Shown: piece after piece, positions 23,405 through 25,640 of the stretch | Numbering within the stretch: position 1 is the stretch's first letter | Layout: every line of letters starts with the position of its first letter | DNA from: Mycobacterium barrassiae | GTDB lineage: Bacteria > Actinomycetota > Actinomycetes > Mycobacteriales > Mycobacteriaceae | NCBI RefSeq assembly: GCF_025822765.1 | Contig: NZ_JACKUK010000014.1 | Location: forward strand, 124,001-188,000 | Length of the DNA stretch: 64,000 nt | Reading direction: 5' to 3' | Notes under the pieces: generated by a model | The model's database searches: none | The model's input: only the letters and a program-made list of their open reading frames with translations | Told to the model about the DNA's origin: nothing | Program-made: the position numbers and the translations under genes

Positions 23405-24142
23405 TCAGCGGTCGGCCGTTGAGAACCATTTGGTCTTCTTGCGCCACGATTCCGCCGACGTGATGGCGAACCCGGCCCCGCACATGCACGCGAAGATCCA
23501 CACCAGCGTGGAGCCGGCGTCCAAAGCCTGGAGCTGCGGAATGAAGGCGGTGGCCAGCCGGGTCAGGCAGGCAGCGATGCCCGCGGCCGACGAGACCAGG
23601 TAGATGTTGGCGACGGTGCGAGAGCGCGGATCCTGGCGCAGCACCAGCAGCGCTCGCGAGCCGTAGCCGAGCAGATAGATGAGGGTTCCGCACAACAGCA
23701 GCCAATAGATGTTCAGCCAGAAGTCTGTCGGCACCTGGAAGAAGTCGGCCTTGTAGATCTTGGCGCCGTTGCCCAGGGTGAACGCGACAAGGAGCAGCGG
23801 TATACACAACGTCGCGGGGTACTCGACGTACTGCTTGAACGACAGCCGGAGATCGTGGTCCTGCTGTAACCGGCCGAGCGCGTTGTAGACCACCGCGGAC
23901 GCCGCGACGATGTAGAGGTCGTGGCCGATATAGTCCTCGAGGTTCCATTTACCGGTGAGGGAGTGCAGGAATACGCCGAGCGTTTCCGAGGCCCACGGCG
24001 ACATGAGAAGTACGGCGCCGCCCTGCAAGGCGATGTTCAACGTTGCCGCGAACTCCCAACGGGAGGACCACGTGACGCGCCTAATCCACAGGCTCCATGC
24101 GATACAGCAAAGCGTTATCGCGATCAGAGAAGTGAGAGCCAT
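23405..24142 (-). CDS. Seven-helix membrane protein of unknown function
   Basis: 245 aa and almost entirely hydrophobic. Seven likely helices begin near residues 3, 32, 75, 111, 143, 173 and 215 (for example LIAITLCCIAWSLWI, FWLNIYWLLLCGTLIYLLGY). Conserved-looking polar patches lie between them: LEDYIGHDLYIVAASAVVYN, DHDLRLSFKQYVEYP, YGSRALLVLRQDPRSRT. There is no signal peptide, nucleotide-binding or transporter motif that I recognise. The layout recalls the membrane part of actinobacterial MAB_1171c-type proteins, which often sit beside HTH regulators, but that link is tentative. It lies 43 bp downstream of the HTH gene; a TATACT hexamer at 24181-24176 could give it its own promoter. Confidence 0.75.
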   Translation of the reverse strand: MALTSLIAITLCCIAWSLWIRRVTWSSRWEFAATLNIALQGGAVLLMSPWASETLGVFLHSLTGKWNLEDYIGHDLYIVAASAVVYNALGRLQQDHDLRLSFKQYVEYPATLCIPLLLVAFTLGNGAKIYKADFFQVPTDFWLNIYWLLLCGTLIYLLGYGSRALLVLRQDPRSRTVANIYLVSSAAGIAACLTRLATAFIPQLQALDAGSTLVWIFACMCGAGFAITSAESWRKKTKWFSTADR

Positions 24143-24185
24143 AAGTGTCGCTTTCGAGCCGCAATGTACTCAGCAAAGTATAGGG

Positions 24186-24557
24186 CTACAGGGGCGGTGC
24201 GTCACTGCGCGGCTTGAGCTCGGACAGCTTCGGGGCGCGAGTCCGTTGGGTGGTGCGGGTGGCGGTGGCCTCGCGCAGTGCGGTGGGCGCGAAGGGTGAG
24301 GACTCGAGGTAGCTCCACACCTCCTGCTCGCTCATCAGGCCGAACCGAATCTGCAGGTCGGGGTAGCTGAGGCCGAATCTATCGGCTACGCGGCGCAATT
24401 CCTCGGCGTCGGGATAGTCGCTTTCTTTGATACGCCGGTAGTACGTACTGCTCGATGTGCCGAGCGCGTCGTAAATATCCTTGGCGTCAATATCGCCGTC
24501 CAGGAGATAGTCGAGCAGGGCTTTTAGCTGTCGGCCGTTCTCGTCTGTTCGGGGCAC
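24186..24557 (-). CDS. Small HTH regulator, phage-immunity-repressor-like
   Basis: 123 aa. The DNA-binding part (about residues 13-70) reads ALLDYLLDGDIDAKDIYDAL, then SSSTYYRRIKESDYPDAEEL and RRVADRFGLSYPDLQIRFGL. The TYYRR...DYPDAEELRRVADRFGLS arrangement resembles mycobacterial and mycobacteriophage (L5/Bxb1 cluster) immunity-repressor-type proteins as I remember them. The tail is basic and Pro-rich without a known domain. GTG 24557 is chosen because TATCGT (24570-24565) lies 7 nt upstream; a GTG at 24566 would overlap that hexamer. It shares a divergent control region with the orphan domain gene and precedes the membrane protein. Confidence 0.75.
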   Translation of the reverse strand: MPRTDENGRQLKALLDYLLDGDIDAKDIYDALGTSSSTYYRRIKESDYPDAEELRRVADRFGLSYPDLQIRFGLMSEQEVWSYLESSPFAPTALREATATRTTQRTRAPKLSELKPRSDAPPL

Positions 24558-24694
24558 CTTACCCACGATAAAGCAATTTCCGACGAATGGGCAGGGGCAG
24601 CCGCAAACTGGAAGGCTTTGCCTTAATTGACACTGGCGTCACAGTTTCGGGAGCACTATCCCAAATATGGGACACCTGAGCTATCGTTGGCATT
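24558..24694. promoter_or_regulatory. Divergent control region of the accessory island
   Basis: TATCGT -10 hexamers face both ways, at 24682-24687 (plus) and 24570-24565 (minus), each 7 nt from a start codon. A TTGACA box lies at 24627-24632. Perfect inverted repeat TCCCA-AATA-TGGGA is at 24659-24672, just before the plus-strand -10. TGAC(N6)GTCA lies at 24628-24641. These are plausible binding sites for the HTH protein; none is proven. Confidence 0.5.
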
Positions 24695-25360
24695 ATGGTT
24701 GCTCCCCAGTTGCCGACAACGGCCAACGAGGTTTTCGAGGCTGTTTCCGACGCCGTTTCCGAACGTGCAATTCCAGCGATCCACATCGTGGATTACGACA
24801 CTCCGGATGGTTCACGTCCCGCGGGCATGGCGCGGGTGTCGACGACGGATACCGAAGAACTCACCGCAGAACTGGACGGGGCCATCGAGTGGCTGGGCGT
24901 CGCTTCCGACGAGATTCTTCTCGCGGCCCTGGCCCGCACGATCGCCAGGACGCTAGGCGAGGGCACCGTCGCCGTCGATATCGCCAGTCAGCGCGGCAGC
25001 ATGCTCGACGCGGTGCCGCTGACCTGTGCCACCGCCCGGCAGGTCGACGCCACCGAAATGCTGCGCAGCGTGTCGGCCATCCTCGCCTCGGCCACGGAGA
25101 GCGCTGCCGACGGGATGTCGGAGATGTACTTCAACTACCTGGGTGAGGTCCCCGAAGATGCGGTGCCGGTGCCGGTGCAGGAGACGCCGCCCGGGCTGGG
25201 CCACGCGCTGGAGATGCGGGTCTACCGCACCGGCGGCCTGGTGCACGTCGACTGGTGGTACGACACGAGCCAGTTCGAGCCCTACACCATCGAAGAGCTG
25301 GCCGAGCAGTTCCCGCGCGCGTTCTACGAAATGACCACGGACGCGCTGCCTGCCGGATAA
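24695..25360 (+). CDS. Orphan C-terminal half of an NRPS epimerization/condensation domain
   Basis: 221 aa. Residues about 60-215 match the second half of an NRPS epimerization-type condensation domain: DEILLAALARTIARTLGEG, VAVDIASQRGS, the epimerization-type motif YFNYLGEVPED, GHALEMRVYRTGGLVHVDWW and YTIEELAEQFPRA. The N-terminal half with the catalytic HHxxxD motif is absent, so it cannot be a normal condensation or epimerization enzyme. The upstream DNA does not encode a lost half, because the gene begins at a promoter-like start and the region upstream is the divergent control region. No adenylation or carrier domain is nearby. It is probably a small binding or partner protein; function unknown. 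Confidence 0.7.
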   Translation: MVAPQLPTTANEVFEAVSDAVSERAIPAIHIVDYDTPDGSRPAGMARVSTTDTEELTAELDGAIEWLGVASDEILLAALARTIARTLGEGTVAVDIASQRGSMLDAVPLTCATARQVDATEMLRSVSAILASATESAADGMSEMYFNYLGEVPEDAVPVPVQETPPGLGHALEMRVYRTGGLVHVDWWYDTSQFEPYTIEELAEQFPRAFYEMTTDALPAG

Positions 25361-25407: not shown

Positions 25408-25414
25408 CGACCAC

Positions 25415-25640
25415 ACGGCGTTGATCCGGCTATCACCGGGGAGCCTTCGGAAGAACGGCTGTTTTGGCTCAGTAGAACCGAACGGGTGGGCCCGTCATCG
25501 CCCGAAGTGAGCGGCGCACGTCGTCGATGTGCGCAAGCGGGGTGGTACCGCGGCGCTCGCGCACCGCGCGAGGTCGTCCCCGTGCCTTAGATGTGATGGG
25601 GCCTCCGAAGGCGGAGGCCGCAGATTGGGCACAGGAGACA
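25415..25640 (+). promoter_or_regulatory. T-box riboswitch, ileS leader (translational type)
   Basis: Most of the 281-bp gap before ileS is a T-box leader. The specifier hairpin CCGG-CTATCA-CCGG (25426-25439) shows the isoleucine codon ATC (25432-25434) in its loop: a short stem I, as in actinobacterial ileS leaders. The stem II region AGTAGAACCGAACGGG follows near 25471. The T-box sequence GGGGTGGTACCGCG (25539-25552) has TGGT at 25543-25546, able to pair with the ACCA end of tRNA-Ile. A perfect 8-bp hairpin, GGCCTCCG-AAGG-CGGAGGCC (25600-25619), has no T-run after it. The ileS ribosome site AGGAG is 25633-25637, and GTGCC (25581-25585) could pair with GGCAC next to it. Control is therefore probably of translation initiation. 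Confidence 0.9.

Follow-up and report, generated by a model that had tools for sequence, protein, structure and literature searches.

Temperate mycobacteriophages carry an immunity cassette in which genes for Cro, a repressor, a seven-transmembrane (7-TM) protein and an integrase succeed one another, as in Adephagia (gp44/43/42/41), ZoeJ (gp46/45/44/43) and Gaia (gp69/68/67). According to the functional account of Adephagia (PMC11373665), gp43 is the superinfection immunity repressor, and no lysogens were detected after its deletion; gp42 possesses seven predicted transmembrane helices; both are expressed at a low level in the lysogen, and overexpression of either inhibits growth. For Mycobacterium abscessus, prophage repressors are described as divergent from cro-like genes (PMC8092301). 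Our analysis concerns a locus of Mycobacterium barrassiae between lipL and ileS in which relatives of this repressor and this membrane protein, here called HTH (helix-turn-helix) and TM (transmembrane), lie opposite a gene for a stand-alone half-domain of 221 amino acids, E221. It is located in a window of 64,000 nucleotides (contig NZ_JACKUK010000014.1, positions 124,001 to 188,000 of the forward strand), to which all positions given without a locus name refer. Judging from sequence comparison, we hold with moderate confidence that an immunity switch like that of temperate mycobacteriophages is fixed here in the chromosome, with a non-catalytic half-domain as its regulated output.

Only three open reading frames (ORFs) lie between lipL, identified by NF052353 (743.7 bits, cut-off 650), and ileS. 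TM (23405..24142), a multi-pass membrane protein of 245 amino acids, and HTH (24186..24557), a regulator of 123 amino acids, are encoded on the minus strand; E221 (24695..25360) is encoded on the plus strand, and a shared divergent control region of 137 bp (24558..24694) separates it from HTH. This interval contains no integrase or phage structural gene (att repeats were not searched), no carrier or adenylation partner for E221 and no further synthase ORF. HTH matches phrog_1746 ('transcriptional repressor'), a phage immunity-repressor family, with E = 3.8e-19 (residues 3-123 of 123, profile positions 3-128 of 128); the adjacent TM matches phrog_950, a family of unknown function, with E = 2.5e-76 (residues 4-241 of 245). 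A crude hydropathy scan of TM finds six transmembrane segments, a seventh near residues 72-90 being recognizable by eye only. The longest HTH frame begins at 24566; the GTG at 24557, which gives 123 amino acids, is the likelier start, because the alignments of most homologues begin no earlier than residue 2-4 of the longer frame and because a -10-like TANNNT box (24565..24570, minus strand) precedes this codon by 5-8 nt in all 64 distinct upstream sequences. A preliminary description, made from the letters alone, had recognized the three genes and their orientations, the likeness of HTH to phage repressors and the multi-pass nature of TM, all of which we confirm; its reading of E221 as half of an epimerization/condensation domain of a nonribosomal peptide synthetase (NRPS) stands for the half-domain, a C-lobe with the motif FNYLG, and fails for the NRPS origin, the parent being a polyketide synthase.

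The kinship of HTH and TM with phage immunity genes is seen both in the families and in their arrangement. Adephagia gp43 belongs to phrog_1746 (E = 2.5e-55) and gp42 to phrog_950 (E = 3e-94). Of 50,697 phage records, 448 contain a relative of TM, aligned over at least 80% of the TM length in 328; the corresponding figures for HTH are 203 and only 10, and all these records are from Mycobacterium phages; 29 of the 40 phage HTH matches listed carry the annotation 'immunity repressor'. Thirteen phage or prophage regions were picked by their TM match, some top-ranked and others scattered over the lower ranks: Gaia, MalagasyRose, prophiGD03-1, Ukulele, Amelie, Henu3, Juliette, Optimus, Marshawn, Lumos, prophi_GD43-6, DismalFunk and Zavala. 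An HTH or repressor gene adjoins TM in every one of them; the Lumos gene at this position is annotated as hypothetical only, yet it aligns with the HTH family. Three of the regions (MalagasyRose, prophiGD03-1 and prophi_GD43-6) have TM convergent with the repressor rather than downstream of it. Across the divergent promoter lies a gene annotated as Cro or HTH in 11 of the 13 regions and a hypothetical gene in Henu3 and Ukulele. ZoeJ and Adephagia, selected for other reasons, have the same gene order. The locus of M. barrassiae thus resembles the phage cassette in its combination of phrog_1746 and phrog_950 and in the order and orientation of repressor and TM; the Gaia repressor has, by eye, a TANNNT box 7 nt before its ATG, like the host HTH. 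Unlike the cassette, the host locus lacks integrase and lytic genes, has E221 in place of cro, has a different putative operator and is fixed beside ileS in many species. HTH and TM very probably constitute an immunity module of the phage type, a kinship that explains the layout of the locus.

The phylogenies of both proteins mix host and phage genes, several rows standing on long branches. In the TM tree, built from 49 rows, phage and host sequences are intermingled; the best tree has five changes, and at least two are forced by well-supported branches. The HTH tree, of 47 rows, joins a second host type of HTH in one clade (support 95/97) with phage repressors of what we take to be the cluster K/L type. 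This second type accompanies TM but not E221. The second host module (L122-L127) contains a TM of the same family and an adjacent HTH of the same PHROG (tested in L127 only); it differs from the locus at ileS in having neither E221 nor the palindrome TCCCA-N4-TGGGA in the fetched stretches. At two loci near lipL (L123 and L124), a TM of the family converges on the other, cluster K/L-like, HTH type and E221 is absent, which looks like an exchange of repressor type or a replacement of the module. Two further loci (L131, 2191-4779, and L132, 2595-5439, from genomes of 5.0 and 4.3 Mb) possess one HTH followed by three tandem, diverged TM copies, which are 33-38% identical to TM of the window; several other genomes seem alike.

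E221 has its closest relatives in quite another class of proteins. It contains FNYLG and matches TIGR01720 over residues 133-212 with E = 4.1e-5 and 23.5 bits, below the curated cut-off of 74.2. In hhalign, E221 aligns over nearly its whole length with the C-lobe of the last domain of KS-AT-ACP-C synthases (ketoacyl synthase, acyltransferase, acyl carrier protein, condensation) at probability 100 and E = 2.9e-45. The relatives of E221 are ORFs of 1458-1958 amino acids (22 examined), and each of the seven scanned contains ketoacyl synthase, acyltransferase, carrier and Condensation domains. This synthase family with an epimerization-type last domain is found in mycobacteria and their relatives (22 loci: L034, 2350-8037; L035; L151-L170); in M. 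senuensis (L034), a gene for a PapA5-like acyltransferase comes after the synthase. The nearest solved relatives of the parent domain are domains of PvdL, bacitracin synthase 3, GrsA and tyrocidine synthetase. The orphan genes (32 rows) group in a single clade apart from 22 synthase rows (support 100/99). By these relationships the origin of E221 is a polyketide synthase of the KS-AT-ACP-C type, not an NRPS. Derivation from MbtF, the mycobactin NRPS, was considered and rejected, the Pfam domains giving a KS-AT-ACP-C parent. No second E221 match is found in the own genome, and no phage copy at E <= 1.

Homologous as the C-lobe is, E221 differs from the synthase domain in being a stand-alone gene without an N-lobe and without several internal segments. 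The N-lobe with the HHxxxDG-type histidine site is absent; an RTVGWFTxxYP-like segment is missing by eye from 22 of 22 E221 rows and a PHYGIGYG-like segment from 21 of 22, segments that we take to be the E4/E5 and E6 regions, respectively. The remaining row (L010) retains a form of this latter segment, in agreement with a descent of E221 from the synthase domain. The exact motif FNYLG is present in 5 of 22 aligned rows, the near relatives of the window's gene. Since the histidine site and these segments are lost, the original chemistry is very unlikely, and we consider E221 to be, in all likelihood, non-catalytic. Inactive condensation-type domains that serve as a binding platform are known from NRPS X-domains; unlike E221, these have both lobes and sit inside the synthetase.

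The control region between HTH and E221 is rigidly conserved. From 118 loci we obtained 70 distinct control regions, aligned on the palindrome TCCCA-N4-TGGGA (24659..24672, plus strand); no locus was dropped for lacking it. The palindrome is present in 70 of 70, which is partly by construction because it served as anchor. TTGAC stands 32 bp before it in 66 of 70; a TANNNT box follows 8-10 bp after it in 69 of 70, and the ATG of E221 another 6-7 nt further, again in 69. In the window this -10-like box reads TATCGT (24682..24687, plus strand), 7 nt before the ATG, a spacing which, as for HTH, predicts a leaderless message. Numbered from the A of the start codon (+1), the palindrome occupies -36 to -23 and is centred near -30, over the -35 region of the E221 promoter; this position suits repression of E221, and we propose the palindrome as the operator of HTH. 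Two more elements are conserved upstream, namely TTGACA-N5-GTCA (24627..24641, plus strand), centred near -61 of E221 and possibly an activator site or a second operator, and TTTYGGNA (24645..24652, plus strand), which resembles a half-site. A second palindrome on the HTH side was tried and found weak, a loose pattern fitting 25 of 70 regions. Within the own genome, only this locus matches the 16-mer TCCCAWWTWTGGGACA exactly; three other sites differ from it by 1-2 mismatches, the closest of which (L148) has no obvious promoter setting around it. The palindrome is absent from 33.8 kb around the other host HTH type, from 70.5 kb around paralogues and from 274 kb around synthases. The 97 kb of phage DNA hold a single copy: in Lumos (L182, 1795-1808), the sequence TCCCAAAATTGGGA, of the host palindrome form, lies between the gene at the repressor position and TM. 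By our estimate, about 0.1 occurrences are expected by chance in the phage DNA searched; we judged this site to be fortuitous, and an operator common to phage and host was rejected. A scan of IMG/VR gave 11 contigs with the palindrome, by a rough estimate no more than chance, and the fetched stretches contain no relative of HTH or TM. Taken on its conserved geometry, direct control of E221 by HTH is probable.

In much of the genus, the genes are found as one unit. Among 396 genomes searched for E221, 296 match at E <= 1e-8, synthases included; among the matches listed, the open frames (up to 622 codons) assign at least 150 rows, from 149 genomes, to the orphan type, and no internal stop interrupts any of 150 such rows. 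The first 35 loci comprise 29 of the orphan type and six synthase loci. All 29 orphan loci have HTH and ileS beside E221 in one order and orientation, and 28 possess TM (partial in L009). When 60 genomes of the genus were drawn, ileS was found in 57, and E221 lies about 230-355 bp upstream of it in 30, every time with HTH beside it. The DNA upstream of ileS in 16 of the 27 non-carriers holds no trace of the three genes at E <= 0.01 (one stretch measuring 1.25 kb), and in one non-carrier (G044) lipL directly precedes ileS, which represents the empty site. A further draw of 151 genomes of the family, at least ten of them from the genus itself, includes nine matching genomes outside the genus, where E221-like sequence is present only inside ORFs of at least 1508 codons; stand-alone E221 is found only in the genus. 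Of the fetched loci, which are partly redundant, 120 have an HTH that is 60% identical or more, and E221 is present in all 120; at the 30 E221-like loci without HTH, the sequence lies inside ORFs of at least 1458 codons. A strong HTH match (E <= 3.5e-46) is present in 72 of 148 genomes, all 72 of which are in the E221 match list (adjacency was checked in the fetched loci only). Plasmid copies of E221 or TM were not detected at E <= 0.001, HTH not being searched there.

The median dN/dS (ratio of nonsynonymous to synonymous substitution rates) of E221 is 0.20 (17 pairs, range 0.085-0.363), as against 0.08 for HTH (13 pairs), 0.075 for TM (17), 0.078 for lipL (11) and 0.069 for ileS (12); the pairs were hand-chosen and are not independent. 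According to these values E221 is kept by purifying selection, looser than that on its neighbours. The gene order looks vertically inherited. The preliminary description had noted an AT-richer stretch, and indeed the GC content is 0.58-0.61 in the four 500-bp windows covering 23.75-25.0 kb, compared with 0.63-0.72 in the other windows of 20-29 kb. The dip is deepest in the control region (51%); TM, HTH and E221 have 62%, 63% and 66% GC. At third codon positions (GC3) the three genes reach 78-85% and the four neighbours measured 86-90%, a slight difference only, so that the codon usage speaks against the accessory island that had been proposed, as does the synteny at ileS. The suggestion that a shared control region makes the genes one system is borne out by the rigid promoter region and by the linkage of HTH and E221, and the genes co-occur widely across the genus. 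A decayed remnant is rejected in view of the lack of internal stops and the median dN/dS. Because E221 forms one clade, is under purifying selection, is linked to HTH in 120 of 120 loci and has a rigid control region, the locus is neither a recent island nor a remnant.

According to our model, the repressor and the repressor-linked TM would have been retained from a phage-type module, and the opposite arm, which in the phage carries cro and the lytic genes, would now hold E221. HTH would sit on the palindrome over the -35 region and keep E221 off; its release, perhaps upon a signal passing through TM, would permit synthesis of the predicted leaderless E221 message. TM, made together with HTH, would be the membrane part that could gate or sense, a role that we assign only tentatively. 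E221 would act by binding, not by catalysis, with a carrier- or acyl-bearing partner as the most likely target, or else HTH itself; any particular partner must be regarded as unlikely. The anatomy of the locus is read from the sequence; repression, sensing and binding are inferred.

Several observations weigh against this model. The box TTGACA-N5-GTCA near -61 would suit an activator. Identity between HTH and the phage repressors is only about 23-38%, in phage DNA the majority of tblastn matches of HTH reach no further than its first two thirds, and the host operator was not found in six cro-repressor intergenic regions of phages and prophages; the phage switch is therefore an old relative at best. 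In Phrappuccino, the HTH of the family (gp40) is not followed by a TM gene. Toxicity of 7-TM proteins is not general: Hammy gp44, a membrane protein that may or may not belong to this family, was without effect in the screen reported for that phage (PMC10700055). Three genomes of the genus depart from the usual locus. G013 has no TM there, another member of the TM family lying at a different place in that genome together with the second HTH type; in G162, only a remnant of TM is left and the C-terminus of HTH is altered, E221 being open; in G002 (L121, a single-contig genome of 4.0 Mb), HTH has two in-frame stops and TM an internal deletion, with E221 again open, a possible recent reduction. 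TM is thus dispensable, and E221 can persist, at least temporarily, without an intact HTH.

Another reading concerns the direction of transfer. The repressor and 7-TM module could be a bacterial invention that mycobacteriophages captured several times, the host locus being ancestral and never a prophage. Such an origin agrees with copies that are syntenic over much of the genus and reside at several chromosomal loci, with the interleaved host and phage labels of the TM tree and with the lack of phage genes between lipL and ileS. Yet a divergent output, a repressor and then TM are the usual phage immunity layout, TM is present in 448 phage records, and the second host HTH type belongs to a supported clade with phage repressors; we consider a host origin rather unlikely. 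The family traits – a superinfection immunity repressor and a co-expressed, growth-inhibiting 7-TM protein – could instead suggest an anti-phage device, in which HTH and TM provide immunity or exclusion and E221, released upon infection, changes envelope lipids or poisons a synthase, thereby blocking adsorption or spread. The dN/dS of E221, about 2.5 times that of HTH and TM, and the parent synthase family, one member of which precedes a PapA5-like acyltransferase gene, are in line with this idea. On the other hand, PADLOC anti-phage defence models give no match at E <= 10 for the three proteins, a CorA-like model being matched by one of 18 TM rows at 0.0039; the dN/dS values are far under 1, the locus holds a syntenic position and is not scattered, and neither the six phage intergenic regions nor the chance-level IMG/VR matches reveal the host operator in a related phage module. 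A defence role appears unlikely. Solved structural relatives of TM were not found at E <= 10, and HTH scores 18.5 bits as an Xre antitoxin (PF20432), below the curated 25.8.

A different proposal concerns E221 itself, which might be a partner of HTH in the place of cro, an antirepressor or co-repressor whose half-domain pocket senses an acyl or carrier ligand. E221 accompanies HTH at 120 of 120 loci while TM is sometimes lost, occupies the cro position and retains the C-lobe core, most parts of the active site being lost; but it offers no direct sign of a binding surface, remains open where HTH is broken (G002) or altered (G162), and varies more than HTH, and we give this proposal little credence. 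That E221 is a decaying fragment of a synthase gene with unrelated neighbours would account for the truncated domain and for an exact FNYLG in only 5 of 22 rows; with no internal stop in the 150 rows listed, dN/dS values of 0.085-0.363 over 17 pairs, one E221 clade, a rigid promoter and no further synthase ORF at the locus, decay is hardly credible.

Beyond the system itself, E221 sits directly upstream of a neighbouring T-box leader of ileS (25412..25584, plus strand; RF00230, E = 1.4e-8, with 43.6 bits well short of the gathering score, 93); transcripts that start at the E221 promoter could therefore extend into ileS.

A literature search, mainly of open-access sources, yielded no description of the locus or of a chromosomal copy of the repressor/7-TM module, and no role for the 7-TM protein beyond the Adephagia screen. 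New, on our reading, is a phage-type immunity module that is fixed in the chromosome with an unexpected output gene. We may go further and suppose, with very little confidence, that a mycobacterial ancestor kept the lysogeny switch and that its output was replaced by half of a lipid-synthase-type domain, which senses a ligand or carrier and feeds back on the repressor. If true, the decision between lysis and lysogeny would have been replaced by a vertically inherited, possibly bistable, membrane-linked epigenetic switch, which would read the state of envelope-lipid synthesis or a phage attack on it. The neighbourhood of TM and repressor recurs in temperate mycobacteriophages, and the chromosomal locus with its single-gene output may provide a simple system for the effect of TM on the repressor. 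E221 would represent one lobe of a condensation-type domain turned into a conserved stand-alone protein, which may serve to test what such a lobe does without its catalytic partner.

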